Below, piece by piece: positions 22,898 to 62,990 of a stretch of 64,000 nucleotides of DNA. Numbering within the stretch: the first letter of the stretch is position 1; each line of letters begins with the position of its first letter. The translations under genes were made by a program, and so were the position numbers. Source of the DNA: a virus; IMG/VR virus record IMGVR_UViG_3300009788_000091, positions 1-64,000 of that record, one strand, 5' to 3'. The notes under the pieces were generated by a model. The model saw only the letters and a program-made list of their open reading frames with translations. It was not told the DNA's origin and did not search any database.

Positions 22898-22916
22898 TGT
22901 AAAACAATGTTATACT
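22898..22916. promoter_or_regulatory. Double 9-mer box upstream of the 22501-22875 gene
   Basis: TGTAAAACA (22898-22906) and TGTTATACT (22908-22916) are spaced 10 bp apart. It is one of the dispersed TGTTATACA-family boxes found at late gene boundaries; here the orientation is opposite to that at 45157-45175. Confidence 0.55.
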
Positions 22917-22939
22917 AATTTGATTAAAAAATATAGTTC

Positions 22940-23770
22940 TCAATAAATAACGCCTTGCGCTAATTTAATCATTGGATTTTCTGGATTTCTACCCCCAAAA
23001 TACACTGTAATAACAGTTTCAATTCCTTTTCCATCGGTTGATTTTTTTAACATCCATACCCAAAAATACCTAAATGTTCGAACAATTGAATACATCCATT
23101 TGTATTGTTTTTTCATTTTATTTTTTTCTTCTGTCAATTCAATTGCTTTTAATCTAATCCAAGTTAAAAGGGCCTCACTTGTCATTTTACCTTGTTTTAT
23201 GTTTTTATGTTGAAAACTATTAAAAATAATTCCACCAACTAACCAAATATATTCCCAAATAGTAGGTGCATAATTAACACACATTTTATAAAATGCGACA
23301 TCACTTCCTTGTTTCCATCTTTTAATATTATATTTATTAAGACTTACATTATTAAAATTGAACCCATTTTCTAAACCATAAAAAACAATATCAAGTTTAA
23401 AATCAGAATCAATTAAAACACTACCTGAACAAATTGCGGCATAATTATCTAAAGCTTCGGGATTATCATCTCTGCCTGGATTTCGATTATAAAGCCCTTT
23501 TATTGGTTTTCCATTTTTTATTCGTTGAAGATCAAATATGCTATTATAAAATTCATATTTATCTTCATTTGTTAAAAGATCATGATGTTTTAATAACCAA
23601 ATAAAATAACATTTACCCAAAATTCCATTATCATTTGCGGCTGTTTTTCTTGTAAAACCTGGAAATGGTGGACGATCACCACGGTAATCTAATAAAGAAA
23701 GACCATCTTCAGCAACCCAATTGTTAGAATATTCTTCTTTTAATTGGATTGTTTCAGTTTTATCAATCAT
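22940..23770 (-). CDS. Fibre-locus protein of unknown function
   Basis: The 276-residue protein is rich in aromatics and mostly helical. It contains RGDRPPFPGFTRKTAANDNG near the N-terminus and YNRNPGRDDNPEALDNYAAI in the middle. I recognise the type as a phage protein often found beside fibres but cannot name a function. There is no signal peptide or clear catalytic motif; the DDN...DNY segment could be an active or metal site. It lies 7 nt downstream of the exported fibre-like gene, so it may be its chaperone or modifying enzyme. Confidence 0.6.
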   Translation of the reverse strand: MIDKTETIQLKEEYSNNWVAEDGLSLLDYRGDRPPFPGFTRKTAANDNGILGKCYFIWLLKHHDLLTNEDKYEFYNSIFDLQRIKNGKPIKGLYNRNPGRDDNPEALDNYAAICSGSVLIDSDFKLDIVFYGLENGFNFNNVSLNKYNIKRWKQGSDVAFYKMCVNYAPTIWEYIWLVGGIIFNSFQHKNIKQGKMTSEALLTWIRLKAIELTEEKNKMKKQYKWMYSIVRTFRYFWVWMLKKSTDGKGIETVITVYFGGRNPENPMIKLAQGVIY

Positions 23771-23777
23771 AGATTAA

Positions 23778-25745
23778 TTATCTTGGTCCAATACACATAA
23801 ATTGAAATGGAGCATCAGCTTGAGCACCAGAACTACAAACAATTGTATCCACACCTACACTAGTTGCACTACTAGTAGTCGCTCGGCTACAAAAACCATT
23901 GGCGTCTAAAGTTATAAAACAATTTGGAGATGTGCTGAATGTTCCAGTGACAAGAGTAAAGGTCATACTTCCAACGGCGTCGTCTGAAGGATTGCCCACA
24001 ATCCAATCGCCATCTTCGCGTGAAACGGTTGGTGTTCCACTATTTGTTATAAATGCTGTAGCTACTTTAATGCCGCCGCTTGATGGGCTAGACAATTGAT
24101 TCAAGACGATAGTTTGTGGGACATGTCGGGTCACAGGAAATACTTCCCAATGAACGTCTTGCTGACCAAGAGTTGCTGTTCTGTTCACAATCACTCTGGA
24201 ATTCAAAAGTAAAGAAATAGCATCTTGTTCAAACATTAACCTAAGTGTCTTTTTCGCCACCAAATTAAAAGTGAACAAACCACATCGACGATGAGAAATT
24301 TTACCAGTGATTCGATTTCCAGCTCCAGGTTCAGTTGTTCTATGACCGCTTGGAATTCTTTCATTTCCTTCAGCTAATATAGTCTGAGCATTATTGGGAG
24401 TTTCAACAATTTGAAATGTAGTAAAGACACCACCAAAATTTGTAGCATTACCTACTTCAAACTCATGAGCGAATGAAACACAAGCTCGAAAAGTGCCCGC
24501 AAACGGCGGAGTAAATGAAATGGCATTTTGTTCGTCAGCGGCTGTGCATGTACTAGAAGTGCTTTCTGTGGTGCCCGCACATCCAATTAAAACAGGCGCA
24601 GAACCAGGATTGGTAACAAGATCCAAATTTGTAGTACCCATCCCTGTATAAGTTGTAACATCACTCGTTCCTAAAGAAATAATTGCACCTGGTCCACCAA
24701 TATTTGCATTAATATGCCAACCTTGATCTTTAGGTTGAATTACTTTTTGTGAACCAAGCGGGAATCGTTTTACAATCCACTGCATTTGCCCAGCAGTTCC
24801 GGTTGCAGTTGCGTTTTGTATGGTTAAATTTCCACTACTCACTTCACCAAAAATTTCAAGACTTTTTGGACCTTCTACAAGATGGTCGAAAGTTCCATGT
24901 AAGGCTATAACATCAAAATTAGATGCATCTTGATTTCCATAACTTCGTTTATCCAAATCAGCGCTAGCTGTGTTATCTCGTAAAGTATATGTGCTATCGG
25001 CGACAGCTACACTTAATGCAACAGTAAACATCACCTGTACATCATATGAACCTGGAGAAAGACTTGACCATTTCATTGTAGGCAAATCATCATCAGCAGT
25101 ATCAACAATCGCCTCTGCATCTGAATTAGCAACAACAATAGCTGGACATGCTGCTGTTGTAGGAAAAGCACCAGAAGATGTGCTTGTTCTAGTCCAAGAA
25201 CAACTTGCAGTGGCAGGATAATTAGCATTTGTAGCAATGGCAGACTGCGCGACTTTAGTTAATTCATTTAATCCAAGAAAAGTGGAATCCACTTTAATTT
25301 CAGCAGCATCTGCTGTTGCTAAAATTCTTAATGAAAGATTTCCAGTATTAGGACAAGTGAATGTGACTTCCGCATCCGTATAAACAGTAACAGGTGTTAA
25401 TACAACTTCGCGTAAAGCATTGGTTCCATCGTAAATTTGCAACTTAAGATTTGCATCACCCCCATTGTATTTCATGCTGACAACACAATCACGGTTATGT
25501 AATGATTTTGGAACCGCTACTAGATTGGATCTTAAAAAATCATTGTTTACAGCAGCGTCATATTTTCCAGCTGCCAATCCTTCCGCAAAGTCAGTCTTTT
25601 CAATTGAGAAAACACCGCCAGATCGAATCCATCTAAAACCTGCTTGTTCAAAACCTGGATTTACAATTTGATTAACTGGGTTTTGTGCAAATGCACTGTT
25701 TCCAATTAAAAAAACCAAAGTTAATAAAAATTTAAATGTTTTCAT
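23778..25745 (-). CDS. Fibre-like beta protein with a Sec signal peptide
   Basis: The 655-residue protein begins with a clear signal peptide (MKTFKFLLTLVFLIGNSAFA, cleavage before QNP). A jelly-roll carbohydrate-binding-like domain follows (NPGFEQAGFRW...), then Ser/Thr/Ala-rich beta domains, and a C-terminal region with PNCFITLDANGFCSR. The mature protein looks like a secreted adhesin, yet it is encoded within the tail-fibre genes with the same strong AAAGGGG ribosome binding site. Either the phage exports a surface-binding protein from the host or the signal is retained on a host-derived fibre domain. Function is inferred from composition and location. Confidence 0.65.
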   Translation of the reverse strand: MKTFKFLLTLVFLIGNSAFAQNPVNQIVNPGFEQAGFRWIRSGGVFSIEKTDFAEGLAAGKYDAAVNNDFLRSNLVAVPKSLHNRDCVVSMKYNGGDANLKLQIYDGTNALREVVLTPVTVYTDAEVTFTCPNTGNLSLRILATADAAEIKVDSTFLGLNELTKVAQSAIATNANYPATASCSWTRTSTSSGAFPTTAACPAIVVANSDAEAIVDTADDDLPTMKWSSLSPGSYDVQVMFTVALSVAVADSTYTLRDNTASADLDKRSYGNQDASNFDVIALHGTFDHLVEGPKSLEIFGEVSSGNLTIQNATATGTAGQMQWIVKRFPLGSQKVIQPKDQGWHINANIGGPGAIISLGTSDVTTYTGMGTTNLDLVTNPGSAPVLIGCAGTTESTSSTCTAADEQNAISFTPPFAGTFRACVSFAHEFEVGNATNFGGVFTTFQIVETPNNAQTILAEGNERIPSGHRTTEPGAGNRITGKISHRRCGLFTFNLVAKKTLRLMFEQDAISLLLNSRVIVNRTATLGQQDVHWEVFPVTRHVPQTIVLNQLSSPSSGGIKVATAFITNSGTPTVSREDGDWIVGNPSDDAVGSMTFTLVTGTFSTSPNCFITLDANGFCSRATTSSATSVGVDTIVCSSGAQADAPFQFMCIGPR

Positions 25746-25758
25746 GTTCTACCCCTTT

Positions 25759-26457
25759 TTATGCACTAAATGATGGTATGAAACTGTCTCTTAATACTCT
25801 GGCTTCTCCAACAGAAGAAACACTTTCATTTCCAAAGTCCCTAAAAATCTTTACCAATAATATATTACCAGGAGCCACTGCAACTGCATTAATTTCACCT
25901 GATCCATCTGTTAAATCAATATCCCCAATTGCTTTTACTTCCAAAGAACTTGCTGGAACGGTTGTTTCTGCGTTTATACTCGTATGGGTGTCTGATAATG
26001 ATCCCAATTGACTTGTACCTGGTTGAATCAATGTAGTGACAGCTCTTACTAAAACATTGTTTGCTGTTGGTACAATTCCATAAACCCCATTTTTTAAATT
26101 AATTTGATCTCCAGCAACATAAGTTAATGGTACATTTGCAATTGCAAAAGCATTTACAGCATCTAATTCATTTAATAAAAAACTACGCACACCTTGAGCA
26201 TCTACATCTTCTGGTGCCTGATCGACTGCTCCAAGATAAAAAACAAAACTTCCAGCACTTCCACCACCACCTAAACGAATAAATTCAGGAACAGTACTTT
26301 TAACAATCCAATAAGTATTATTATCAGTTTGTTTTACAATTTTTCCTATATCGGCAGTTACATATGTTGCGCCTATTCTTGCAGCTGTATTAGCAAATGC
26401 AAACGCATGAAATTGATGGATGTTAGCCAGTACTAAATCTTTATGTAAATTACTCAT
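25759..26457 (-). CDS. Tail-fibre-associated structural protein
   Basis: The 232-residue protein starts with LHKDLVLANIHQFHAFAFAN, followed by IGKIVKQTDNNTYWIV, a short beta unit found in phage fibre and baseplate-linked proteins that display multiple domains. A linker-rich central part and a beta-rich C-terminal half (SSLEVKAIGDIDLTDGSG) follow. It lies between two fibre genes with AAGGGG before the start. Likely part of the distal fibre or its attachment; no enzyme motif is seen. Confidence 0.6.
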   Translation of the reverse strand: MSNLHKDLVLANIHQFHAFAFANTAARIGATYVTADIGKIVKQTDNNTYWIVKSTVPEFIRLGGGGSAGSFVFYLGAVDQAPEDVDAQGVRSFLLNELDAVNAFAIANVPLTYVAGDQINLKNGVYGIVPTANNVLVRAVTTLIQPGTSQLGSLSDTHTSINAETTVPASSLEVKAIGDIDLTDGSGEINAVAVAPGNILLVKIFRDFGNESVSSVGEARVLRDSFIPSFSA

Positions 26458-26467
26458 TTTCGTCCCC

Positions 26468-28576
26468 TTATACTTTAAATATAATATCGCCTAAATTGTC
26501 AACAATAATACCACCAGTGTCAGCATCTAAAATCAAATTAGAAACTGATTCACCCGTTGCTGCACCTGCTTCGCCAGCAAATGGTAATCGAGTAAAGTTT
26601 GATTCAGAAATATTTCTAATTGCAGTTACGCTTACACCAGAATCATTTTGAACTGCAACAACTGCTGCTGCAATTGCTGCACTAGATAATAATGGATTTG
26701 GTGCAGCAGATTGTGTAGCACCGAAACCTGTAGCTGGTATAATTAAAAGAGTATCATCAGTTAGTAAATTTATACTATATTTAATCCATTCATCAGGATT
26801 TGCTGTAAAATCAGTTGGAGTAAAATTAGCCCCACCTGTTACAACACCTGTTTCAAAATTAATTAAACCGCCGGTAAAACCAGAAATTATTGTTCCAAAT
26901 GGTAATGTAAAAACACTTCCATCAGCAGCGGTTATACTTGATCCAGCAACATTGACAATTGTGTCATTTGGACTATTTGGAGTAATTTTAAGTAATTTTC
27001 GAGCTAAACTTTCATCGTGAACTTCATTTAAACTAGCATCTACTGTTAATGCATTTCCTAAAATATCAGAATAAACCGTTTTTGCAGCTGTAAGAAGATC
27101 TCGTGTAGCATTTCCATCTCCAAATTCATTTATAAACCAAAGAAGTGTTGCACCAGCATTTTTTGTAATACTCCAAGTTTCACCAGCTTGATCATTATCA
27201 CTATCTAAATCCACACTAAGAGTTGGATCATTTGTAAATAAAGTATTGAAAAATTGAATTTGACCATCTTCTTGAATTTTAAAAATAAGATTCGCAAGTA
27301 AAACTGAATTATTATAAAAATTATATGCGTGTCCTGCTCCATCATTATTCGCATCAATCAAAAAATCCATATCAGTTAATGATTGGAGAACAGAATTAAA
27401 AGTAACTGTATCAGTAGCAATGTCATCACCAAAAGTTGAGCTGCCTTCTACAACTATAGTTGATTGAAACACAGTTGCTACTGCTGAAATATTTTGAAAA
27501 TATGCATTTCCATGAGCGTCAATAAATGCAATGGGTGTTCCACCACTATCAAGAATTCGCCATTTAATTCCTTGAATTCCACTTCCACCACCTGATGGGA
27601 AAAGTGTATGTGAAGCTGGTACATCAGGAGTATCTTCATCACTAGCATTAACTTGGGTAGCGAGTTGTACACCCGTTACAGTCTGTTTTGTAGTGATGGT
27701 GTCTGGATTAATGTCAGAATGAATTCCAGTTGTAATGTCATGTTCAACACCAAAAAAAGCACCTAATGCACCAATTGGAACACTTAAATTATTTACATCA
27801 GTTTGATTAAAACCTGTTGGGCTACTTCCTAGACCAATACCAGTTACTATTCCTAAAAATAAAATATTACTATCAAGTCTTAAATCAGTATTTCTTTTAA
27901 CAGTAGGCCCAATTAAAAAAACTTGATAATCAGAAGCAGTCGTTGAAATACTTCCAACAATTTGGCCTAATGCAGTTGTTGTTTCGATTTTATTATTTGA
28001 ACCATCCCAAAGAACAGTTAAATCTTCAAATAATTGCGCCTCACTTTTAGGATCTTTTAACCAAATTCTTACTTTTCTTCCAGCATTACTAACACCAGCT
28101 TCAGTAACGCTATCAACAATAACTGTAAGAGTTTCATCACCATCATCAACAACTGAATCAGGATCAGCCAATTCACCTATTGCTTCTTCTAAAAATGTAA
28201 ATTTAATTTTTCCAGTACGAACATTAATTTCACTTTCTCTTGGAACACGATTAAATCTTGCACCAATAAAATATGGAATTGCAGCTGTATTTTGAAAAGG
28301 AACGCTAGTGAAATTTAATGGATCAGGAATTAAAAGATTTCCTTGTGCGCCATCTGTGCCAGTCAAAGGAGTAAAAACTGTAAAGGTATCAATTACTGAT
28401 GAAGATAAAAGTGTAGTCGTTGCAATGTCAGGAGAAAAAACTCCATTAATTGGGTAAACTATTCCAAATAAATCTTTAGTTAGTTGTTCGAGATAATCAA
28501 AAAAATTGGTAGTGATCTCTTGTTGTGCTAGAAATTTTTTAAGAAAAATATCTACTTTTCTATCACTTGTCGCCAT
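26468..28576 (-). CDS. Long tail fibre protein
   Basis: The 702-residue protein begins with a helical attachment segment (FLKKFLAQQEITTNFFDYLE), continues as an extended beta-rich Thr/Ser/Asn-rich shaft, and ends with repeated Gly/Thr segments. The middle contains IKWRILDSGGTPIAFIDAHG and AYFQNISAV, typical of beta-helical fibre shafts. It follows the baseplate gpI-like gene, the usual location of fibres. The double 9-mer box lies 19 bp before the start, so it may head its own fibre transcript. Confidence 0.8.
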   Translation of the reverse strand: MATSDRKVDIFLKKFLAQQEITTNFFDYLEQLTKDLFGIVYPINGVFSPDIATTTLLSSSVIDTFTVFTPLTGTDGAQGNLLIPDPLNFTSVPFQNTAAIPYFIGARFNRVPRESEINVRTGKIKFTFLEEAIGELADPDSVVDDGDETLTVIVDSVTEAGVSNAGRKVRIWLKDPKSEAQLFEDLTVLWDGSNNKIETTTALGQIVGSISTTASDYQVFLIGPTVKRNTDLRLDSNILFLGIVTGIGLGSSPTGFNQTDVNNLSVPIGALGAFFGVEHDITTGIHSDINPDTITTKQTVTGVQLATQVNASDEDTPDVPASHTLFPSGGGSGIQGIKWRILDSGGTPIAFIDAHGNAYFQNISAVATVFQSTIVVEGSSTFGDDIATDTVTFNSVLQSLTDMDFLIDANNDGAGHAYNFYNNSVLLANLIFKIQEDGQIQFFNTLFTNDPTLSVDLDSDNDQAGETWSITKNAGATLLWFINEFGDGNATRDLLTAAKTVYSDILGNALTVDASLNEVHDESLARKLLKITPNSPNDTIVNVAGSSITAADGSVFTLPFGTIISGFTGGLINFETGVVTGGANFTPTDFTANPDEWIKYSINLLTDDTLLIIPATGFGATQSAAPNPLLSSAAIAAAVVAVQNDSGVSVTAIRNISESNFTRLPFAGEAGAATGESVSNLILDADTGGIIVDNLGDIIFKV

Positions 28577-28594
28577 CCAAAACCCCTTTAATTC

Positions 28595-28613
28595 AGTATA
28601 ACTTTGTCTAACA
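28595..28613. promoter_or_regulatory. Double 9-mer box upstream of the fibre genes
   Basis: AGTATAACT (28595-28603) and TGTCTAACA (28605-28613) with 10-bp period form a degenerate member of the dispersed box family. It lies in a 64-bp gap in an otherwise compact gene block. Confidence 0.45.
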
Positions 28614-28640
28614 CATTATGTAAATAAAAACACACCTTTA

Positions 28641-30645: not shown

Positions 30646-30659
30646 TTAAATTATTTCCT

Positions 30660-33467
30660 TCATATTACAGAAACCGTTACTGTTCCAGCTATTGGTAATT
30701 CCCTTGTAGCCAAAACTACATCGGCTGATGGAGTTGTTAAAACTACTTTTTTAATATTTACTGGATCGACTTCAAAAATTTCAGCAATGATTACTGAAAA
30801 TGGTATCTCTTGCCCAAATTCCCACCTTTTTGTTACACCATCATCAAATGTTGCTTCAGGATTTAAAAGTGATGTAATTGCATTTTTAATTTGTTCTTCA
30901 TTACCTCCTGTAACAGTTGCAACAACATCGATAATTTTTGGTGTAAAATTGACAATTGTAACTTCATGATTGGATAAAATAATTGGACTAATCCCAAGTA
31001 CTTTATTCCCATTAAAAAAATCAGTTAATTCTGTTCTTTCAGCTTCAGTTAATAAAATTCCACCTTGTCCTACAACAACTAGTTCAATTGTTTTAACTCC
31101 AAAAGTTTCTTCAATTCCTAATGCTCGACTTACAATTTCACTCCCACTAGCAGCAGTAAATTGAGTAGCTAAAAATTCAAAGTCTGGAATAGTAATAGCT
31201 CTACCTCTAGTTCGAAGTGTTGCTGGGCCTTCAATTTTTAATCTTGCTAAATCTTCATCAGTAGAGCCTTCTTTAACTGTAAATCCTTTAGCTTGACGTG
31301 GATTAAAAATTCGGTCAACAAAACTAATTCCACTTTTATTAACTGTGATAGTTTCAGCGCCAACATTTCCATCATTATCGGCACCAATTCGATAAATCGC
31401 TCGTATATTATCGACACCAGCAAGAGGAATTTTACCTCTAGTTCCATCTCCAAATTTTATTGTAGCTTGATCATCAGCGGCGATAGTAACTGTTAAATCT
31501 TTTGATACTGAAGTAGAATTTAGAAAATTTTCTACAATATTCCAAGGTTGAAAACCTGATCCCTCGTTTGCTTCAACAATTAATGTTCCTTCAATAATAG
31601 GATTGAAAGTTAATAAAAATGCTTGATCAGGAGTACCATTTGAACTCGCTAATGGGTCTTCAGCTACAGATTGTCCTTGAACTACAGGTACTAATAAAAA
31701 TTGTTTTCCAGTATCAATTCTTATTCGATCTACATTTGGATTTTTTCCAATTCCAATATTTTCATGAGGGAAAGAAGTTTCGCTTAATCCTAATATTTCA
31801 AATGTCGCATCGTTGCCTGATGGTGCGACTAATCGTACAAGACTTAGACCACCTACAATGGGTGAAGTTAATTTAAGTTGACCGCCACTATCGCTTGCAA
31901 CACTAGAAAGACTTGCATCAACTACAGTTAATGCTGCATTTATATTTGAAACAATTGTACTGATTGTATAAGGAGAACTAACACCTGCATCTCCAGTTAC
32001 ATCAATTTCAGTTTCTGCAAACGCATCAACTTTAATTTTAATATTAAAATTAGATGTATCAAGAGCACTACCATCAAAACCTGTTCCAGTTATACTAGCT
32101 GCTGTTTCGGTAAATTTTGTTACTCGAAATCTTGACCAAGATCCAGCTAAACTATTGACAATAGTTGATATCCAATTTTGTGTTTGATTTTGTGGTAAAT
32201 CAAATGAAACTTTACCATCAGCTGTAAAAAATGAGGTTAAATCATTGGTATTTGCTACTTCATTCCAGACTGATCCAACTACATAAGCTTGTTCATCAAG
32301 ATCAACAACTGCTTGTCCTAAAAGACCTTTAGTTGTAATAATATTTTTTCCACCAGTAAATGTACTTACAACAGTTTCTGATGCACCTGTTGCTGATAGA
32401 ACAACTCGAACAACAGTATCTTTTCTATTACTTGTTCCTAAAAAATCAGTTAAATCAAATTCAAGATTTGATCCAAGATTTGTTACAGAATCAGGTTTAT
32501 CATCATCTAATGTATTATCAAAAAATTCCCAAACCCCTTCAATACCTGAACCAAAAGAATTAAAAACAAATTCTACAGTATCCCATAAAATATCTAGATG
32601 ATTTATATAAATAATATCACCAGCTTTTGGTTTATCATCAAATAAGTCAAAAAATAAACCATCTGTTGATGCTAATCCAACTCGATTTAATCCAAATCCT
32701 CCACTTAAAACATCAAAATTATCAGTAGCACCATCATCTTCAACAATAGAAATTGATTCTACATCTTGGGCTAATGGGATGATTGAAATTATATCAATTC
32801 CATCGTTAATTGCGAATACACGTCCATTAATTTCATCAGCAACAGAATTATTAATTGAATCTGTAATAGCTTGTAAGGTTAAAGCAATGGTTCCGCCTGG
32901 TGTCCATTCAATACCATTTCTAAAATCAACACCCTCAATAGTAAGTTTATCACCACCATCAAAAGCATTATCTTTAATTAAAATTTTACCAGCTGTAAAT
33001 GTGAAAATAGATGTAGGATTATCTGTTGGTGTTATTGTAAAACTTAAATCAGTTTCATAAATAATTTGAGGATTTTCTTCTGTTTCAACTGTAGCAAACT
33101 GTGAATTGATTGGAACAATATTTGTACTAGCAAGAAATACTTTTGAAAATTCTAAGATAACATCAGCTTGAGCAGGTTTAGCCTGGCTCAATCTAACATC
33201 AATTAAAGCTAATTGGCCTTTAACTGATTCTAAAAGCCGTGAAGTAGGTAATAAAGTTTCTGTTGCAGCAATATCCAATAGAACATTGTTTAAATGCGCA
33301 ACTAATGCAAACGCACTTAAAAGCTGGATAAAGGGTTCATTTGGATTTTCATCTGTAATTTCAGGTACAAAAGTTCGTTTAAATTGCAATAATGATCGAA
33401 AAATTTCAGGATAATAAAAGCCAGAAAAATCAAAATCAGGAATTTCTATTATGTCACCATTAGCCAC
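30660..33467 (-). CDS. Baseplate J-like protein (gpJ family)
   Basis: The 935-residue protein begins with a DFDFSGFYYPEIFRSLLQFK segment, continues with a very long beta-rich insertion (about residues 150-600), then the conserved core IKFGDGTRGKIPLAG and DNDGNVGAETITV, and ends in a baseplate_J-type helix/strand region (NEEQIKNAITSLL...). P2 gpJ and T4 gp6 proteins form the wedge iris. It is about three times as long as P2 gpJ because of the insertion. It lies between the gp25-like and gpI-like genes, as expected. Confidence 0.88.
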   Translation of the reverse strand: MANGDIIEIPDFDFSGFYYPEIFRSLLQFKRTFVPEITDENPNEPFIQLLSAFALVAHLNNVLLDIAATETLLPTSRLLESVKGQLALIDVRLSQAKPAQADVILEFSKVFLASTNIVPINSQFATVETEENPQIIYETDLSFTITPTDNPTSIFTFTAGKILIKDNAFDGGDKLTIEGVDFRNGIEWTPGGTIALTLQAITDSINNSVADEINGRVFAINDGIDIISIIPLAQDVESISIVEDDGATDNFDVLSGGFGLNRVGLASTDGLFFDLFDDKPKAGDIIYINHLDILWDTVEFVFNSFGSGIEGVWEFFDNTLDDDKPDSVTNLGSNLEFDLTDFLGTSNRKDTVVRVVLSATGASETVVSTFTGGKNIITTKGLLGQAVVDLDEQAYVVGSVWNEVANTNDLTSFFTADGKVSFDLPQNQTQNWISTIVNSLAGSWSRFRVTKFTETAASITGTGFDGSALDTSNFNIKIKVDAFAETEIDVTGDAGVSSPYTISTIVSNINAALTVVDASLSSVASDSGGQLKLTSPIVGGLSLVRLVAPSGNDATFEILGLSETSFPHENIGIGKNPNVDRIRIDTGKQFLLVPVVQGQSVAEDPLASSNGTPDQAFLLTFNPIIEGTLIVEANEGSGFQPWNIVENFLNSTSVSKDLTVTIAADDQATIKFGDGTRGKIPLAGVDNIRAIYRIGADNDGNVGAETITVNKSGISFVDRIFNPRQAKGFTVKEGSTDEDLARLKIEGPATLRTRGRAITIPDFEFLATQFTAASGSEIVSRALGIEETFGVKTIELVVVGQGGILLTEAERTELTDFFNGNKVLGISPIILSNHEVTIVNFTPKIIDVVATVTGGNEEQIKNAITSLLNPEATFDDGVTKRWEFGQEIPFSVIIAEIFEVDPVNIKKVVLTTPSADVVLATRELPIAGTVTVSVI

Positions 33468-41967: not shown

Positions 41968-41986
41968 TGTTTTACAATGTTATACA
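41968..41986. promoter_or_regulatory. Double 9-mer box before the chaperone/tape-measure genes
   Basis: TGTTTTACA (41968-41976) and TGTTATACA (41978-41986) are 10 bp apart in the 115-bp gap between tube and chaperone genes. It is the only box of the series lying more than 60 bp from the start codon. Confidence 0.6.
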
Positions 41987-42486: not shown

Positions 42487-45129
42487 TTATGTTTCTTCTG
42501 TAACTCCCAATTTCGAAATTCTGATAATGAATCTCTCAACGGTATCTGCCAATCTCAATTGAATTTCTGCATTCAAATCGCCAGCAGCTCTTGTGGCATC
42601 AGTGTTATTTTCATCATCAATTTTAATTCGAGCAGCATCATCGACATCTTTACCTCGAATTGCGCCTTTGGCAAATTCAGGAATAAAGAATGCTCTAAAT
42701 GCTGAAATAAGACTTTGTTGGGCCTCATCATCATTAAGTGCGAAAATAATGAAATCAAAGTTTTCAAGAAAGATGTTTTCAAAGTGAGACATCGTTTCGC
42801 GTTGGTGTTTGAATTTAAATGCTGTATCAAGACCAACAGTACGATCACCCCACATAATGAAGTTACCTTCTTTACGTTTGATAATATTAATTCCAGCAGG
42901 ATTTAAAAATTCTTCATCCAATTCTTTTCCTTCTAAACCGTCTGGAAGTTTAACGATATTTGAAAGAATAACATCAACACCAGCTGCTGCTTTATGAAAT
43001 CCATCGAAATCATTTGCTACTCTAGCTTCTTTTCCATGAATAGCACCAGTCAGGCTAATTAATTTATTTCCTGGTCCTTCTGTATTTACAACAAATGCAA
43101 ATGATGGAAAATGAACAACTCCAAAATCATTTTTTCCAAGTGTTTCAGAAATAAATTCATCAACTGCTTGTTCATCAACAATATTGGATGGAACTTCATA
43201 TCTATATTGCCAATTTTGACTTGCAGCAAATGCTACCCCTGCTTTTTGTACAGCAGCAACAGTGTTACCTGGACTTGCCAATTTAACTAATCCAAGATTT
43301 CTATTTCTTAAGCCTTTTAATGCTGAAGTTCCGGTATTATAAGCATCAATAAAATCTTGGTCAGCAATTTCAGAAAGTCCATCAAACCCAGCACTCAACT
43401 CCTGAATATATTCGACTCTAAAATTATCACCCAATGCTGCATCAACTGTCATATCTGATCCAGCTGCAACTGTTATTGAGCCAGCAGTATTAGAAACAAT
43501 TCTAAAACGCTTTCTTCTTTCAATAACATTTGGAATTAAAATCCCATCAACAAGTTTACCAACTTCAAGTGGACAAACTCGAAGGATAATCGTGTCGGCG
43601 ACTGCAAATACTTTTGTCGAATCCTTTGAAGTATCAATAATTGTGAAACCAACTCCAAATTCATTTGGTGCTGCAAACGCAACTCCTGAAGTTACTGTAA
43701 GACCAGTCAAGAATGGCATTTTTTCAGAAACATAATCCCAAATTTGATCTAATCCACCTGCAAGTGTAGCTCCGCCCCAAGTTGGTTGACCACCACCTCC
43801 AGCGGAAGTTGTAGTAAATGCATTACCAGCAAGACCTGCTGTTTGCGCAAACAAATCCATCGTGGATGCTGATGCTTTTTCAGCAAAAAGAAGATCAAGC
43901 AACAACACATCTTGGCTTGCATTAATAAACGCTACGAGATTATCAAGCGTTGCTTCCGCTGAACCGCCAATTAAAACTTCAGCAGTTGCATCTGCAACTA
44001 CAGTTTTGAAAGTGATTGTCTTACCATTAATTACAACAGTATCTGCATCAGCAGGTTGACCAGGGAAAGTTGCAAGACCTGCGGCTCTTGCACCAGCAGT
44101 CGATACTGTCAAAGTTACTCGGTCTAAAATAACGGATGCTCCAAGAGTCAATGGCGCTGCTTTTGCAGTTGCAGCAGCAACAGAAGAAACTACTTCATCA
44201 TGAATTTTTGCAGTCAATACTGTTGAAGTAAGTGTCAATGATTTACTAAACACGTTTGCTGGTCGAATTGCAGCGCTAACTGATCCAACAAATAAATCTT
44301 CTGCTTTAAGTAAGAAATCAGCATTTGGATCATCATTAATGGTATTTAAAAAATATTTCAATGAATTTGGATCAGAACTAAGATTATCTAAATCTTTTAC
44401 TTTAACTGCGATTCCACCTTCGACCAAATAAACTTCAAGCCCCCATTCATCAGCAGGTTGGTCTAAACCTTCTTTTATTAAAACAGCTAAAGCTAATCCA
44501 TCATTTAAAAGTTCAGCAGAAAATAATAAATTCGCACTTCCATCAATTTCAACTACTAAATCAATATCAGATGGTACTGTAATAACTCCTAATGCGGTAT
44601 TTGAAAGAATTTCAAAAGATTTTCCAGGTACAGCAGAAAGTGTTAATTTCCCACCTGCTAATTCATCTTTTTTCAAACCAGCTGGTATATTAGTAAATGT
44701 GATTGTAGTAGGAGTAATAGCGGCATAAGAATCAACATGTTTTTGTTTCTTTCCAGCCCAACGTCCACCATTTCCAGCAAGCCATTTAATTGAATCGCCA
44801 CGAACATCAAGACGATTTTTTTGAATTAATTCAGCGGCTTTTTCATTTCCATCAGTTACTCGACTAAGCCATAATGAGCCAGCAGCGGCACCTTGGTCAA
44901 AAAAATCAAAAGCGGCATCAGGACCAAGTGATTCAGGAATTCGATTTCCTGCTTTAAATTTAAATTGAGTTTCATTTAGGGCAAGAAATGCTTTTCCAAC
45001 CGGGCCTTTTTGTAAAACGGTAGTATAAGCAGTCGTTCCTAAAGCGCCTGGTTCAATTGTACCAGCGGCTTGTTCTTCAATGATTGCAACTCCAGCACCC
45101 CTTAACGGTCCAAATCTTCGTTGTGCCAT
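42487..45129 (-). CDS. Contractile tail sheath protein
   Basis: The 880-residue protein begins with GVAIIEEQAAGTIEPGALGT, typical of sheath N-termini. Residues of about 130-560 are Ala/Thr/Val-rich inserted domains. The C-terminal 250 residues have the conserved sheath core: YRYEVPSNIVDEQAVDEFI, NFIMWGDRTVG, and MSHFENIFLENFDFIIFALN. It is much longer than T4 gp18 (659 residues), the excess being in surface insertions. Its strong AAAGGGG ribosome binding site and upstream double box fit high late expression. Confidence 0.92.
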   Translation of the reverse strand: MAQRRFGPLRGAGVAIIEEQAAGTIEPGALGTTAYTTVLQKGPVGKAFLALNETQFKFKAGNRIPESLGPDAAFDFFDQGAAAGSLWLSRVTDGNEKAAELIQKNRLDVRGDSIKWLAGNGGRWAGKKQKHVDSYAAITPTTITFTNIPAGLKKDELAGGKLTLSAVPGKSFEILSNTALGVITVPSDIDLVVEIDGSANLLFSAELLNDGLALAVLIKEGLDQPADEWGLEVYLVEGGIAVKVKDLDNLSSDPNSLKYFLNTINDDPNADFLLKAEDLFVGSVSAAIRPANVFSKSLTLTSTVLTAKIHDEVVSSVAAATAKAAPLTLGASVILDRVTLTVSTAGARAAGLATFPGQPADADTVVINGKTITFKTVVADATAEVLIGGSAEATLDNLVAFINASQDVLLLDLLFAEKASASTMDLFAQTAGLAGNAFTTTSAGGGGQPTWGGATLAGGLDQIWDYVSEKMPFLTGLTVTSGVAFAAPNEFGVGFTIIDTSKDSTKVFAVADTIILRVCPLEVGKLVDGILIPNVIERRKRFRIVSNTAGSITVAAGSDMTVDAALGDNFRVEYIQELSAGFDGLSEIADQDFIDAYNTGTSALKGLRNRNLGLVKLASPGNTVAAVQKAGVAFAASQNWQYRYEVPSNIVDEQAVDEFISETLGKNDFGVVHFPSFAFVVNTEGPGNKLISLTGAIHGKEARVANDFDGFHKAAAGVDVILSNIVKLPDGLEGKELDEEFLNPAGINIIKRKEGNFIMWGDRTVGLDTAFKFKHQRETMSHFENIFLENFDFIIFALNDDEAQQSLISAFRAFFIPEFAKGAIRGKDVDDAARIKIDDENNTDATRAAGDLNAEIQLRLADTVERFIIRISKLGVTEET

Positions 45130-45156: not shown

Positions 45157-45175
45157 AGTATAACAGTGTTTTACA
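45157..45175. promoter_or_regulatory. Double 9-mer box upstream of the sheath gene
   Basis: On the minus strand, TGTAAAACA and TGTTATACT are 10 bp apart, 28 bp before the ATG. TGTTATACT also resembles an extended -10 (TG-N-TATACT), so promoter function is possible here. Confidence 0.6.
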
Positions 45176-53483: not shown

Positions 53484-54698
53484 TTAGGCTAATCCAATGT
53501 TAATGCCAAGAACAACAGCGTCAGTTTCTTCAATCTGACTTGCTACTCTTGCTGTCATAGCAAACTCTGTAACCGAACCAAAGATGTTTCGATCACGTTC
53601 CAACCGAATGTCACGACCAATTCCAAGTATCATATTCCTGAATTCAGTCAACCACATTTGGCTTTCAGCTAGATAACTTAATTTCACATCACTAGGATCA
53701 GAAATCGCTCCTGAACCTGGATGAGTAATAGTTCCAGCTGCGTTATCAATCGTGTAATCGGTAGGATTCACAAAAGGAGTAACAGGAACCTTCGGATTTG
53801 CATTGATAGTTTGCAAAACAAGAATGTCACTACCAGCAACAATATTCTTATTTTTCAATGCAACTGGACTTACACCAGTTCCCAAAGAAAATTCTTCGGT
53901 AATCAAAGGCGTCTGAGGAAGTAGAGCCAATGGCACCAATTCAATTCCAAATGGGCGAAGATTTACTTCACTTGTTGCAGCTGTATCACCAAGACCAGTT
54001 GCGCGTGAAGCCAGGTTATTCCTGAAAAGTTGTTCGGTGGTATCCGAAATGAAAAATTTCAGGTTACGCTTGTTACGTTTGAACTTGCTAGGCATTTCAA
54101 CAATCATGTCACTGAAAATCTGATGCTTAATATTTTCGCCATCATTATCAACGATATGACTTAATCCAGCTAGTTTCATCCAACCATCTTGCAATTTAAG
54201 ATAAGTATCAACGATCACTTCCGTAGCTGATCCGCCATCGACCAATTCACTTTCGAATTTAACTGCACCAAGTTTATCACCTTGGATATACAATTCTTCA
54301 AGATCGTTCGAAAATTGAGTCGCCATCAATCTCATGATGGTATCTTCAACAGCTTCACCTTCTAAGTTTTCAGAAAGGAACTCATCTGAAATTTCCCATG
54401 GAACCATAATTTCTTCTGGTTGTAGGGTGACCTTACTGGTGTTGATTTTTCGTCGAACACCTGGATCAACAGCTTCTTTCTTAGGAACAGCAACTCTGGC
54501 TCCAACTCCAATTTTATCGATATCTAATTTATCATTTCGAAATCGAATAACTCGAACGCGACCTTGAAGACCAGTCACATCAATAACAAAATCAATGAAA
54601 CGATCTGCTTGTGCATCGTTCAATCTTCCTGCTGCTGCGATTTCCGCAGTTGTGATTACTGCTTTTTCCAGCAATTCTTTATTAGTTAGCTTACTCAT
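53484..54698 (-). CDS. Major capsid protein (HK97 fold expected)
   Basis: The 404-residue protein has an N-terminal helical region (LLEKAVITTAEIAAAGRLND), then an E-loop/P-domain-like part with VTLQPEEIMVPWEISDEFLS and ENLEGEAVEDTIMRLMATQF. It ends in a beta region with LAESQMWLTEFRNMILGIGR. The EEIMVPWEISDEF-type strand is a usual sign of HK97-like major capsid proteins. Its length, strong ribosome binding site (AAAGGGGG) and place after protease and scaffold genes agree. Confidence 0.88.
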   Translation of the reverse strand: MSKLTNKELLEKAVITTAEIAAAGRLNDAQADRFIDFVIDVTGLQGRVRVIRFRNDKLDIDKIGVGARVAVPKKEAVDPGVRRKINTSKVTLQPEEIMVPWEISDEFLSENLEGEAVEDTIMRLMATQFSNDLEELYIQGDKLGAVKFESELVDGGSATEVIVDTYLKLQDGWMKLAGLSHIVDNDGENIKHQIFSDMIVEMPSKFKRNKRNLKFFISDTTEQLFRNNLASRATGLGDTAATSEVNLRPFGIELVPLALLPQTPLITEEFSLGTGVSPVALKNKNIVAGSDILVLQTINANPKVPVTPFVNPTDYTIDNAAGTITHPGSGAISDPSDVKLSYLAESQMWLTEFRNMILGIGRDIRLERDRNIFGSVTEFAMTARVASQIEETDAVVLGINIGLA

Positions 54699-54718
54699 TT
54701 TTAACCCCCTTTAAGGTT

Positions 54719-54737
54719 TGTTATACAGTGTTATACA
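54719..54737. promoter_or_regulatory. Double 9-mer box upstream of the major capsid gene
   Basis: Two exact TGTTATACA copies (54719-54727 and 54729-54737) are separated by a G. The box fills most of the 53-bp gap between scaffold and capsid genes, 21 bp before the ATG. Confidence 0.7.
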
Positions 54738-54751
54738 AACAACTCAAATCA

Positions 54752-56020
54752 TTATTTAGTTCGACCTGATCCAGACTTACCACTATTCGCTGCATTTCTT
54801 TTTCGAATAGAAGTACGAATATTATCTAAATTAAGTAAATCTTTAAATACAGATTCAGTTTTAGTTGTTTGATTTTCATCATTATCATCATCTTCGTCGT
54901 CGTCATCTTCGTCATCTATGGCTCCAGATGCACCTGCTGTAACTTCGAGATCATCAAATCGTTTTTTAAGTTTGTCAGAACTAGTTTTTACTTCAGTTTT
55001 GACAGATTCAACTGCTTCTTCAATAGATTCAACTGCTTCTTCCAGATTTTTTATCTGCTTCACAGTTTCATCCATAGATTTTTTCATTGAAGAACCTTTC
55101 TTTTTTTGGCCCATCACCGAAGCGATAAGACTTGAAAGAGATTCAGCAATTTGTCTCAAAGTAGCCAATCTTTGAGATGAAATTTTAGCACCTGCTTTTT
55201 CGACTTGATTTTCATCATCAGAATCTTCGTCAGAATCTTCATCTTCATCAGAATCTTCATCAGATACTTCCGATTTTACAGCCTTGATACGGTCTAGAAG
55301 TTCAGCATACCCAGTTTCAGTTTCATCAGACTTGTTTTTGTCTGCGACCTGTTCAACTTGGTTTGAACTAGCTAACATAGTAACTTGCTCTAAAGCTGCC
55401 ATGTTTAACGCGACGACTTCATTAAGAGCACTCGCACTGCTCTCATGTAACGTTAACGACTGCTCTAACAAGCCTTTCAATTCACCTATATTCTTTTCTA
55501 ACGCTTTAATACGTTTTTCTAAATTCATATTAATTTTTCCTTTTTCTTGATCATCAGAATCTTCATCTTCATCAGAATCTTCATCAGTTTCTTCGTCTGA
55601 ATCAACTTCATCTGTCTTTTCAAACTTTTCAGGATGTTCTGATTTGAATTTTTCAAAATCAAAATTACCATCCATACAAGCGCCAGCAATATCATGTTCC
55701 ATTGCACATGAGAAACAAACAGAACAAAGAAGTCCGATCTTAGGTTCGCTTCCACCTACTTGTTTACAGAAAACGCAAGTGCCTTCATCTGAATCAGATT
55801 TTTTTACTTTTTTAATCCAATTCCCACCTTTTACTGCTGCATCTTTATAAAGTTCTTGCAAAGATTGCGCTATATTTTTAAAATTTTTCGCATTGGCGTT
55901 TTTAAATAAATAAAATGATTCACCAATTGCTGGTTTATCGACACTTGAAACCTCATGCACTTCAAGATCAACAATTCGTTTCTTCCCATTTGATTTAATT
56001 TTCTTTTTTCTTTTTTTCAT
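54752..56020 (-). CDS. Capsid scaffold-like protein with zinc-finger and acidic segments
   Basis: The preferred ATG is 56020 (TAATG with the upstream stop; AGAGGG 8 nt upstream). The 422-residue protein starts very basic. A VDLEVHEVSSVDKPAIGESF segment follows, typical of XkdF/protease-linked phage proteins, then a four-Cys region (CVFC...CSVCFSC). Acidic Asp/Glu/Ser stretches alternate with coiled coils (LEKRIKALEKNIGELKGLLE; IKNLEEAVESIEEAVESVKT). This architecture suits an internal scaffold. It lies between the protease and major capsid genes. Confidence 0.7.
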   Translation of the reverse strand: MKKRKKKIKSNGKKRIVDLEVHEVSSVDKPAIGESFYLFKNANAKNFKNIAQSLQELYKDAAVKGGNWIKKVKKSDSDEGTCVFCKQVGGSEPKIGLLCSVCFSCAMEHDIAGACMDGNFDFEKFKSEHPEKFEKTDEVDSDEETDEDSDEDEDSDDQEKGKINMNLEKRIKALEKNIGELKGLLEQSLTLHESSASALNEVVALNMAALEQVTMLASSNQVEQVADKNKSDETETGYAELLDRIKAVKSEVSDEDSDEDEDSDEDSDDENQVEKAGAKISSQRLATLRQIAESLSSLIASVMGQKKKGSSMKKSMDETVKQIKNLEEAVESIEEAVESVKTEVKTSSDKLKKRFDDLEVTAGASGAIDDEDDDDEDDDNDENQTTKTESVFKDLLNLDNIRTSIRKRNAANSGKSGSGRTK

Positions 56021-57813
56021 TATGAAGCCCTCTTTATTTCCCATTTCATATTAGAATTGGGAGTAAATTCAATACATTTGGTTTTTTGTCCTTCTTCAAT
56101 AAGTCTAGCACGACCACCGATACTAAACCCAGTAATTTTTCCAGTTTTGATTAAAATCCATACTTCATCATCAAAAACTTTAACAGTCATTACCCACGTT
56201 CCTTTAACAATCTTTCGACCATTAATCTCAAAATTGACAGGAGCCATATAACTTTCGACAACAGCAATTTTTCGACTAAAGTCAACATGCATAAATCCTC
56301 GATCTGCTTTGTCATCTAATCCGATAGAATTTAAAAATTCTGGGTCATTTTGAAATGTAAGCTTAATCATGTAATTATGTCCAGCATTTTCAATTTCTTC
56401 TGCACTTACAATTTCATCTTGAAGATCAATACTTTCAGGAATTAAAACTGGCCCCATTACAAGTCTTTTTTCTTCATCTTGTTTTACAATATCATATTTT
56501 AACGATTTAAATTTTGTTCCTTTTCGAAGTTCTAATTGTTTCAAAAATTCATTAAATGATAAATGTAATGGCCAAACAATATCACTATCTAATTTTTTAA
56601 CCCCTGCTTTTAATCGACCAAAAACACCTTTAATGCCGGATGTTAATTCTTTAGTTCGAAAAGAATCTCTTTTAAAATCATTTGGTTTACGTTGGCGTAA
56701 ACGAAAGAAATTTTCTGTTTCATCTACTTTACTTGATTTAAAATCATGATCTTTAGCCCATGATACTGCTTGAGATCTTGAAAATTTCTTTTTATCAAAA
56801 AGCAAAGTTTGAATAACTAACGATTCTTGTTTTTCTAAATAGGTTTGTTTTAATGCAATAATTCTTTTTTTCATATCTAACATAGATTCAGATTCCTTTG
56901 CTTCATTGTCTTCAAATGAATCAAGTGTGTCAGTTCTAGTTTCTGTCTGATTTTCATTTTGGACAGCATTTTCTGTTAATGAATCCGCTGCACTTGCATC
57001 TAAACTTTCTGCTACTTGTAATTCTTCTTTCAGGAAGCCTACTACTGCTTCGACTCCTTCAGTTAGTCGAACTCGAATCAATGTAGCTTCCTGAAACTTA
57101 TCATTTGATAATACCATAAAAGTGAAGGCATCATCTCTTTCTTCGGATGCCCGTACATTTAAACCATGATCCATTACAAATCGTCTTGCTTGCCCTATAT
57201 CAACAAATCGTTGACGCGAAAGAACAAGTGATTGAATTCGTAATCCATCTCCTAAACGACTCAAATTTTTTATTAATGCTTTAAGACATGCTTCTTTAAG
57301 CACCGCATTAAAATTTGGACTATTTAATCGTTTAATCAACGCAAAATCCATTTCAACAGGATAATTTTTATCCCTTTTAATTTTATAATCTTTAAGCCCT
57401 GGCTTATTTTTTACAGAATTTTGAACTTCAGAAATTAAATCGCCTGGAAGAAGTGATACGAATTTCTGTTCATTAATATCCAAAATATGAGTATGAAGTC
57501 CAGATAATGTTGTGTTCTCTACTTGTAATTCATGTGGGTGTGGTGTGCCTGAATCAGTTTCAATAACCTGTATTCCTTCTTGAGTACGAATAGAGATTCT
57601 ATGTATATGTTTAGGCTGTGATTCAGCACCTACTTCACTTTCTTTTGCATTAATTGGATGCCAGTGTTCTCCATCCAATTCAGTCATAATTAATCTATCT
57701 TGAACAAAAAATAAATGTTTGTGAATTCCATCTTTGAGAGTTTTTGTAGGCGACTCAAGTCTGTGAAGATGAGCACCACCTTCACCGATAACTTTTATTT
57801 TTTTATTACCCAT
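56020..57813 (-). CDS. XkdF-like prohead protease fusion with His-rich N-terminus
   Basis: In this 597-residue protein, residues 1-140 contain five or more HxH-type pairs (HLHR, HWHP, HIHR, PHPHEL, LHTHIL) spaced by 15-25 residues. Two copies of an FDKKKFSRSQAVSWAKDHDF-type module follow (about 195-280 and 325-405). The last 170 residues match XkdF/S78_2-like proteases (VLIPESIDLQDEIVSAEEIE...AGHNYMIK, DFSRKIAVVESYMAPVNFEI, WVMTVKVFDDEVW, TGFSIGGRARL). It probably matures the prohead. The His-rich region could bind metal. Confidence 0.78.
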   Translation of the reverse strand: MGNKKIKVIGEGGAHLHRLESPTKTLKDGIHKHLFFVQDRLIMTELDGEHWHPINAKESEVGAESQPKHIHRISIRTQEGIQVIETDSGTPHPHELQVENTTLSGLHTHILDINEQKFVSLLPGDLISEVQNSVKNKPGLKDYKIKRDKNYPVEMDFALIKRLNSPNFNAVLKEACLKALIKNLSRLGDGLRIQSLVLSRQRFVDIGQARRFVMDHGLNVRASEERDDAFTFMVLSNDKFQEATLIRVRLTEGVEAVVGFLKEELQVAESLDASAADSLTENAVQNENQTETRTDTLDSFEDNEAKESESMLDMKKRIIALKQTYLEKQESLVIQTLLFDKKKFSRSQAVSWAKDHDFKSSKVDETENFFRLRQRKPNDFKRDSFRTKELTSGIKGVFGRLKAGVKKLDSDIVWPLHLSFNEFLKQLELRKGTKFKSLKYDIVKQDEEKRLVMGPVLIPESIDLQDEIVSAEEIENAGHNYMIKLTFQNDPEFLNSIGLDDKADRGFMHVDFSRKIAVVESYMAPVNFEINGRKIVKGTWVMTVKVFDDEVWILIKTGKITGFSIGGRARLIEEGQKTKCIEFTPNSNMKWEIKRAS

Positions 57814-57822
57814 ATGTTTTCC

Positions 57823-57841
57823 TGTTATACATTGTTATACA
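57823..57841. promoter_or_regulatory. Double 9-mer box upstream of the protease gene
   Basis: Two exact TGTTATACA copies are 10 bp apart, only 10 bp from the ATG at 57813 and directly next to the AGGAAA ribosome binding site. The box therefore lies in the mRNA leader or at its start. Confidence 0.7.
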
Positions 57842-57924
57842 GACTACTTAAAAAATATCAAACCTTTTAATTTTTTGAAAGCTTTAAAATATAATCCCCT
57901 AATTAATATAATAGCAAATAAATA

Positions 57925-60746: not shown

Positions 60747-60756
60747 AAAATTTCCT

Positions 60757-62313
60757 TCATATTAATCCAGGTTCTTCATCTCTTGTTTTTTTTGATCCAC
60801 CAAAAGCTAAATTTACTGCAATATCAAGAGCATCAAATAAATCTTTAAATCGACCTGACGGCATTTTTAAAAGATGTTCCATTAAATCATGCATCCCTTC
60901 AAGAAAATAAATTTGCCCTCTTTCAAAATACGCTGAAAGTTTCCAAGCCCTCACTGTTTTATCTTTATCGGTAAAAACTGGTACTGCTCTTATATTAGCT
61001 AATTTTTCATCAGTTTGCATATCCTGAATTAAGGCCCGTTGATATCCATTAGCTTCAATTCCCAACTTAATTGGGTCATATCTGTCAAATTCACGCTTAA
61101 TAATAGCCTTTTGGTCAGTATAATGCGTTACAGCATTATGGTAACTTAATACATAAATATTTTTTGTTTTCTTGTCAATTCCGATTGTAATGTGCGCAAA
61201 TTTATCAGCATCATCACTTTGTTTAATCGCTAAATCCGCTCCTTGTATTTTAATCAATTTACTAACATTGATATCTTCCAGACGATACCATTTGAACCAA
61301 TCAATCTTAAATATTTTTCCTTTCATTCCTTCGACATCATTTTGCATTTGAGCATTAAAAATAATTCTGCCCATAATTTTACGTAATCGAAGTAAATATC
61401 GAACACTTGCTTTTTCAGGCCATAAAGCTAAATACTTTTTTGACTCTGGAGTATTTCGTTTTAAAAGTTTTTTAATTTCTATTAAAGCTGGATAAACTTG
61501 ATAATATCGTTTTTTTATTTTTCCTTTTTTAGTTTTTTTACAAAGAATATTATGTTGAAGATACCCCCACAAGTCTTCTGGATAATATCGAGTACCAATC
61601 AACGACATTTCCCCACCATCAGGTTCTAAACAAGGTAATAAAACTTTCAAAAACCAAGTTCTAATTTTTTCACGTTGTCCTTCAGTGCGTGAATTTTCTT
61701 CATCAACTAAATCATCACCAATAATTAAATCAAAATGCTTTGAGGCTGGACTTCCACCAACTCCCATCGTTGTAATTGTATCTTCTTTAGCATCTGATTT
61801 TCTTGGTGCTACTCTTATATTACCATCATTCCAAATCGTTCCAATATGATTACCAAATAAAGCTACGAATTCTTTTCTTTTTAATTTCTGTTTAATTTCA
61901 GAAAGAAATGTAACAGCATTATCATCAGTTTTTGAAGCTATAAGAATTCGAATATCTGGATTTTGTATTATTTTTAAAACACAACGAGAAATATTTAAAA
62001 TTGTTGATTTACCATGACCTCTAGGAGCTAAAGTTAAATTCCATCGTTGATCTTTTCCATCTACTTGATTAGGGATAACTAAAGAATTAAACTTAATTCC
62101 AAGATACATAGCCCAATGAAAATCTTTAATCTGATAACCTAAAACTTCAGTCATTAAAAGATCCATTCGATCATGATTCTCAATCTGGTCTTTTAACCAA
62201 TGTTTCTTAGCTAGCCTTTTCTTTTTTAATTCATCAACAATTGTTTGACGATTTCTTAATTTTTTAGTTTTAGACCCACCTGAAGTTTGTTCGCTATCAG
62301 TAATAAAAACCAT
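60757..62313 (-). CDS. terL: Terminase large subunit
   Basis: The 518-residue protein contains Walker A APRGHGKST (96-104) and Walker B LIIGDD (D200-D201). A coupling motif region SLIGTRYY follows, then a nuclease domain starting at IQGADLAI (D360) with acidic partners further on (GIEANGYQ, DLFDALDIAVNLA). It packages and cuts concatemeric DNA. No intein or split is seen. The small subunit gene ends 1 nt upstream. Confidence 0.95.
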   Translation of the reverse strand: MVFITDSEQTSGGSKTKKLRNRQTIVDELKKKRLAKKHWLKDQIENHDRMDLLMTEVLGYQIKDFHWAMYLGIKFNSLVIPNQVDGKDQRWNLTLAPRGHGKSTILNISRCVLKIIQNPDIRILIASKTDDNAVTFLSEIKQKLKRKEFVALFGNHIGTIWNDGNIRVAPRKSDAKEDTITTMGVGGSPASKHFDLIIGDDLVDEENSRTEGQREKIRTWFLKVLLPCLEPDGGEMSLIGTRYYPEDLWGYLQHNILCKKTKKGKIKKRYYQVYPALIEIKKLLKRNTPESKKYLALWPEKASVRYLLRLRKIMGRIIFNAQMQNDVEGMKGKIFKIDWFKWYRLEDINVSKLIKIQGADLAIKQSDDADKFAHITIGIDKKTKNIYVLSYHNAVTHYTDQKAIIKREFDRYDPIKLGIEANGYQRALIQDMQTDEKLANIRAVPVFTDKDKTVRAWKLSAYFERGQIYFLEGMHDLMEHLLKMPSGRFKDLFDALDIAVNLAFGGSKKTRDEEPGLI

Positions 62314-62314
62314 T

Positions 62315-62968
62315 TTATCTTTTTCTCACAATAAATTTAATTTTAGTTTTAGCTTTAGTTTTAATTTTAGTCTTTGATATATTTTTATTTTCCAATAATT
62401 TTTGAGGAATAAATTTTCTTACTTCTTCTGGCATAACCCCTAAAAGTTCAGGACGCATATCAATCACACCCGTACTCAATCGTTGAATATTTTCAACTTC
62501 TTTTTGTATTTCTTCTTTTACTTCTTTTTCAGACATTGTACTAAAACTCATCTCACCTGATACTTTAAATTCAGTAGCTTTCTTTTCAATAAATCCAAAA
62601 TCTTGACCCATTTTAATAACAGAATCATAAATTTCTTTTTTCTGTTTTACAGCGGCTACCAACGCTGTCCATTGACCTTTATTTCTAAATTTAACTTTTA
62701 ATTCATCTAGTTCTTTAACCATCTGTCTGGATTTCAATAAATAGTCTGAATAAACACCAACTGAATCAAGATTTTCTAAAACGTCTTTATCATTTCGTAA
62801 AATTTGTTGTTTATAATGGGATAAATCATCTGGTCTAATTTCCAGTTGTTCCATTATTTCATAATCAGTATAATTTTTTCCTATTAAACGACGAATGTCC
62901 GACATCAAATGGCGTTGTTGTTTTAAACTTCGTTGAGCAGGTTTTTTTTTAGACTTATTTTTTTTCAT
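62315..62968 (-). CDS. Terminase small subunit-like protein
   Basis: The 217-residue protein is basic at the N-terminus. A helix-turn-helix-like MSDIRRLIGKNYTDYEIMEQ and LEIRPDDLSHYKQQI segment follows, then a long helical region. It ends in an unusual alternating Lys/Ile/Thr tail. The plan (DNA-binding HTH, helical oligomerisation core) and location before terL agree with TerS. The ATG has no ribosome binding site because a double 9-mer box abuts it 3 nt upstream. Confidence 0.72.
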   Translation of the reverse strand: MKKNKSKKKPAQRSLKQQRHLMSDIRRLIGKNYTDYEIMEQLEIRPDDLSHYKQQILRNDKDVLENLDSVGVYSDYLLKSRQMVKELDELKVKFRNKGQWTALVAAVKQKKEIYDSVIKMGQDFGFIEKKATEFKVSGEMSFSTMSEKEVKEEIQKEVENIQRLSTGVIDMRPELLGVMPEEVRKFIPQKLLENKNISKTKIKTKAKTKIKFIVRKR

Positions 62969-62971
62969 TAT

Positions 62972-62990
62972 TGTTATACAGTGTTATACA
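62972..62990. promoter_or_regulatory. Double 9-mer box abutting the terminase small subunit start
   Basis: Two exact TGTTATACA copies 10 bp apart (62972-62980, 62982-62990) end 3 nt before the ATG at 62968, occupying the place of a ribosome binding site. Confidence 0.7.

Follow-up and report, generated by a model that had tools for sequence, protein, structure and literature searches.

The genome of a large contractile-tailed phage from an uncultured lineage carries a repeated two-box DNA element, in its usual form two 9-bp boxes TGTWWWACA separated by a 1-base gap, and this element is real and functional-looking. We propose that it is a dispersed operator, at which a small RHH-type repressor encoded by the phage would restrain the late genes as well as its own. 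Taken as a whole, we give this reading a probability of about 0.6. The window that we analysed consists of bases 1-64000 of the IMG/VR virus record IMGVR_UViG_3300009788_000091, which has 106,178 bases; the phage is labelled G000.

The late genes of G000 encode a contractile tail sheath, a large terminase, a portal, an XkdF-type head protease and a capsid protein, and its replication genes encode a family A DNA polymerase and a DnaB-type primase-helicase. A search of a phage collection gave no close isolate for the lineage. An archaeal host was raised by some of the capsid and terminase matches, and was dropped because of the family A polymerase and the DnaB-type helicase in G000 and the tmRNA in a relative (a complete gene at L039:6293-6726 of G003). 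Several genes have features of their own. The polymerase (1421-4099) has an N-terminal fusion to a uracil-DNA-glycosylase-like domain, and the helicase gene (7852-10200), which is shorter in the relatives, contains an intein splicing domain and also matches HNH weakly. The protease gene and a tail gene (30660-33467) are longer than the versions of the relatives and align to them in two pieces, which suggests that they contain inserts. A short tyrosine recombinase gene, conserved in three relatives, lies outside the window at L008:2796-3362 (record 64796-65356).

A search of the whole 106-kb record for TGTWWWACA-N-TGTWWWACA gave 10 perfect matches and 13 with at most one mismatch, and none was found in 30 dinucleotide shuffles. 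The spacing is specific too: the 13 matches have the 1-bp gap, versus 0 or 1 for each of nine other spacings. Within the window, the 19-mer occurs 10 times with up to three mismatches, where 0.18 would be expected. The original prediction had listed seven late copies, three exact and the others variant, together with related palindromes in the 10.9-kb control region and before the RHH gene; on recheck all seven coordinates and their division into exact and variant forms proved correct, and the palindromes were found as well (Table 1).

Table 1. Two-box sites of G000 in the window and the candidate regulator gene.
Feature	Position	Strand	Context	Site at the same place in relatives
Late site, direct repeat, exact	62972..62990	-	3 bp before small-terminase-type gene 62315-62968	
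Late site, exact	57823..57841	-	9 bp before head protease gene 56020-57813	G001, G003, G019, G021, G022, L150, L152
Late site, exact	54719..54737	-	20 bp before major capsid gene 53484-54698	G001, G003; weak in G021
Late site, three mismatches	45157..45175	-	27 bp before tail sheath gene 42487-45129	G001, G003; changed palindrome in G019
Late site, one mismatch	41968..41986	-	before gene 41027-41896/41911	
Late site, weakest, three mismatches	28595..28613	-	18 bp before gene 26468-28576	G001, G003; changed palindrome at G019 contig end
Late site, three mismatches	22898..22916	-	22 bp before gene 22501-22875	
Second site before RHH-type gene	13172..13190	+	one good box, one degenerate	
Site AGTATAACC-A-TGTTATACG	13195..13213	+	7 bp upstream of the TTGACA-17-TACAAT promoter of the RHH-type gene	
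Perfect inverted-repeat site TGTATAACA-T-TGTTATACA	10861..10879	.	10.9-kb control region	
Inverted-repeat site, 2-bp spacer	10905..10924	.	in second copy of 45-bp repeat	
Small RHH-type gene, 79 aa, candidate site-binding regulator	13282..13521	+	strand KLHAFRAD, two helices, C-terminal CPxCxGxG	

All seven late sites precede, by 3-71 bp, a start codon on the strand that encodes the late genes, in line with the variable distance that had been noted. They had also been taken to mark the boundaries of transcription blocks. Among the 54 junctions between same-strand late genes, none of the 37 gaps narrower than 40 bp has a site, and only seven of the 17 gaps of at least 40 bp have one, so that a site does not accompany every wide boundary. 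At the terminase gene, the 3 bp between the site and the annotated start are too few to hold a ribosome-binding site; the true start may be elsewhere, or the message may be nearly leaderless.

The box pairs of the late region are mostly direct repeats or mixed, and those of the control regions are inverted, with the form TGTATAACA-N-TGTTATACA. Besides the one at 10861, inverted forms belonging to the same set as the window sites are present beyond the window at 88591, 90817, 90854, 90904, 94148 and 94185. Some control-region sites fall within short open reading frames called by a simple gene finder; these reading frames are probably spurious. Two similar non-coding blocks of G000, 90817-90922 and 94148-94203, hold several inverted sites and share further repeats, and each contains two inverted sites 37 bp apart. 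A 20-bp iteron-like repeat, TTACAATGTATTATATTATC, is present in 4.7 copies at 10613-10706 and adjoins the 45-bp repeat (10843-10959), in which two inverted sites lie; together, these repeats are a candidate replication origin.

The element is conserved in related phages. Scanning viral contigs for the exact direct repeat identified G001 (98.7 kb) and G003 (108.9 kb), with eight sites each, and a reversed-pattern control gave none in G001, G003 or G019. Their late proteins are mostly 40-79% identical to those of G000 (large terminase about 60%, capsid 76-79%, sheath about 56%). All three phages have sites before the genes for the protease, the major capsid protein and the sheath and before the gene-45 orthologue; the genes that have sites in G001 and G003 as in G000 include a tail gene and a small DNA-binding-type gene. 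Other sites are not shared, among them those before g1_61 and g1_124 in G001 and before g3_93 in G003; the G000 counterparts of these genes lack a strict site. The window's terminase used alone as query gave no relatives in viral or genome contigs; further relative fragments were gathered by capsid and terminase alignments, and these partial relatives have some of the G000 sites in common. L150 (49% G+C) and L152 have AGTATAACA-W-TGTATAACA before the terminase and protease genes. In G021 and G022, the protease gene has a variant of the site, and G021 has a further, weak variant at its capsid gene. The site is absent from G020 (28% G+C, capsid 72% identical), which has one AATTTTTT and a TGTCTA-N8-TAGACA palindrome before its capsid gene (L134 1300-1345) and three ATCACA-N2-GTGATA-type palindromes elsewhere.

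G019, whose capsid protein is 78% identical, lacks the TGTWWWACA two-box element and instead has TGTGTTACA-N-TGTAACACA before the sheath and protease genes and just past the gene-46 orthologue. A simultaneous change of consensus at several places is the pattern expected from a changed DNA-binding protein, and the use of a changed palindrome at the same places makes a sequence-specific protein, rather than an RNA signal, the likely reader. Outside G019, a single copy of this palindrome was found in IMG/VR; it belongs to a RelB-type antitoxin gene, and the TTGACA-17-TACAAT promoter of that gene has its -10 within this copy.

The position of the boxes suggests what a bound protein would do. The boxes contain TATAAC or TATACT, and across 28 late sites a -35-like hexamer tends to stand where the box would supply the -10 (mean score 2.37, versus 0.03 +/- 0.39 in shuffled sequence). 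The optimum is sharp and at the expected offset; the shuffle p value of 0.0005 overstates independence because the 28 sites pool orthologues, and the E. coli-like sigma70 model used may not be that of the host. The protease gene of G000 illustrates the arrangement, with a TTGATA-16-TATAAC promoter whose -10 lies within box 1. The fitted -10 likewise falls in box 1 at the protease genes of several phages, and in box 2 for several others. The statement that the element is not a fixed -10 is partly correct: the boxes hold -10-like hexamers, and there are two usable registers 10 bp apart. The site profile also shows a T-rich element at -14 to -9 of the late sites, much of which would be explained by these -35-like hexamers. 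At the RHH-type gene itself, the sites of G001 and G003 overlap the -10, which in G003 (TTGCCA-18-TATACT) is within the first site. In G000, its sites lie 5' of the -35, a position that would also suit activation. Since a protein bound over the -10 would block RNA polymerase, repression is favoured.

The best candidate reader of the sites is the product of the 79-aa RHH-type gene. The original prediction had put forward a phage-encoded regulator and had named this gene among the proteins to try, an option that gained support here. In G000, G001 and G003, sites are present upstream of the gene, which is near the helicase gene in all three; the G001 and G003 orthologues are 38-47% identical over the core, and the conserved parts are this core (xxAFRx followed by two helices) and the C-terminal CPxCxGxG. 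Profile comparison connected the phage core with the cores of RHH-like proteins encoded next to the motif in other genomes (Prob 92, E 5.7e-7), and these with Arc, Mnt, CopG and NikR (Prob 87), the sequences of Arc and CopG being checked ones; a control comparison gave Prob 0.3. Direct comparison of the phage core with classical RHH proteins was weak (Prob 9), and no RHH family match was obtained for the 79-aa protein in Pfam, PHROGs or NCBIfam. For these two reasons, its membership of the RHH class, a domain of about 45 residues with a strand and two helices, is considered likely and no firmer. A poor AF2 model of low confidence (pLDDT 62) has helices at 36-43 and 48-62 and gave no fold match. 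The sites themselves have the form expected for an RHH protein, with pseudo-symmetric boxes that recur after about one turn in direct or inverted order. The fragments G019, L150 and L152 do not include the RHH-type locus. Matches of G030 and G033 to the RHH model were rejected as they cover only its tail end, around CPxCxGxG; the one in G023 was generic, and G023 has no convincing sites.

Loci outside the clade that were found by the exact site alone point in the same direction. At 14 of 21 such loci, several of them near-identical relatives, an RHH-like reading frame starts 0-45 bp downstream; the other seven lack such a neighbour. The 14 neighbours fall into five families, whose strand usually contains AFR or AVR; one is from Morganella and related prophage contigs, and another is a RelB-type antitoxin. 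An AF2 model of an unrelated RHH-like family was too poor for use.

Based on these data, we infer the following mechanism. Each near-symmetric box would take one dimer of the 79-aa protein, and two dimers would lie side by side, one helical turn apart, on the dispersed operator. With dimers placed in this way on near-symmetric boxes, direct and inverted arrangements would both work. At the late genes, where the -10 and spacer of sigma70-like promoters coincide with the boxes, the bound protein would block RNA polymerase, and the structural genes would probably be kept off until late in infection. The protein would also autoregulate, and this would be most direct in G003 and G001, with sites over the -10 of the gene. 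It is tempting to speculate that this amounts to a timer, in which an early, autoregulated RHH repressor is titrated by replicating genomes, each with at least a dozen sites, thereby releasing the late promoters, and that the xAFR strand motif is a family-wide recognition code for TGTWWWACA, re-tuned in relatives such as G019. This combined extension is tentative, and we would give it low odds.

The same protein could act on the same sites as a lysogeny (immunity) repressor that silences a whole prophage genome, like MrpR of SPbeta, whose binding site is a dispersed element of 15 bp. Such a role would be suited by the perfect inverted sites in several non-coding control regions of G000 and by the tyrosine recombinase of G000 and three relatives, which has the signature residues R, HxxR, H and Y. 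However, no prophage, attachment site or lysogeny module was found, the recombinase, in which the usual N-terminal part is missing, could be a resolvase, and the sites of G001 and G003 are mostly at structural genes; we consider this unlikely. Late genes of many phages require an activator, and the upstream position of the sites at the RHH-type gene of G000 would agree with activation of late promoters by its product. Boxes that cover the spacer and -10 of the late genes, 3-71 bp from a start codon, are nevertheless suited to blocking rather than recruiting polymerase, and make an activator quite unlikely.

Two other explanations do without a repressor. The TATAAC and TATACT hexamers and the T-rich element could mean that the boxes are a late promoter for a phage-modified polymerase or sigma factor, which is very unlikely given the perfect palindromes of the control regions, the palindrome switch in G019, the mixed orientations and the RHH-like genes adjoining sites in unrelated genomes; in addition, no sigma factor was noticed among the proteins examined. 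The original prediction had also offered an mRNA-leader element, here understood as one bound as RNA, and the proximity of the sites to start codons agrees with it. That option lost ground, because the element is found in both orientations, its boxes can be direct or inverted, and a relative has another palindrome in its place. For most sites, a promoter can also be fitted whose -10 falls within a box, which would leave the element at least partly untranscribed, and we regard a leader function as highly improbable. The dispersed operator read by an RHH-type repressor is thus our preferred explanation. It gives this uncultured lineage of large phages with contractile tails a candidate switch for the late genes and names one 79-aa protein, and the co-varying series of sites (TAT centre, GTT/AAC centre) is material for learning how RHH-type proteins choose their DNA.

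A literature search for the 9-mers found no relevant description among the papers listed. The earlier view that the element has no described equivalent was nevertheless too strong, as operators dispersed over a phage genome have been described, and so have RHH repressors of viruses, Arc being one of the latter. The late activators Ogr and delta of P2 are small Cys-containing zinc-finger proteins that act at TGT-N12-ACA centred near -55; G000 likewise has a small Cys-containing protein and TGT...ACA sites at late genes, but its sites are TGT-N13-ACA and, in the promoters fitted here, cover the -10 or the spacer. In SPbeta, the repressor MrpR, which has a tyrosine-recombinase fold and maintains lysogeny, reads the 15-bp SPBRE dispersed in intergenic promoter regions (PMC10516654). 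G000 shares with it a short conserved element that recurs in the promoter regions of one large phage and one, here candidate, phage repressor, but its site is a 19-bp two-box one, the candidate is of the RHH type, structural genes are among the targets, and, unlike MrpR, which lacks the catalytic residues, its recombinase retains them. Mycobacteriophage stoperators are also many repressor sites spread over a genome, at which elongation is stopped as well; there, a monomer reads an asymmetric sequence (PMC9283540), whereas the putative repressor sites of G000 are inverted or direct pairs of symmetric or near-symmetric boxes in either orientation. Among RHH proteins, SvtR of the archaeal virus SIRV1 represses its own gene and a tail-fibre structural gene, and was proposed to prevent premature expression (PMC5569661). 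The candidate of G000 would similarly be a virus-encoded repressor with its own gene and structural genes as targets; SvtR, however, has few targets, another site and an archaeal host, while G000 is a tailed phage with sites at many late operons. Omega/ParB of pSM19035 binds as RHH dimers of dimers to direct or inverted box repeats over promoters (PMC9499535), which resembles the short boxes described here, although these have a 10-bp period, and omega has 7-bp boxes, is encoded by a plasmid and has a role in partition too. The element of G000 is therefore a new, probably RHH-type case among the known dispersed phage operators and viral RHH repressors.
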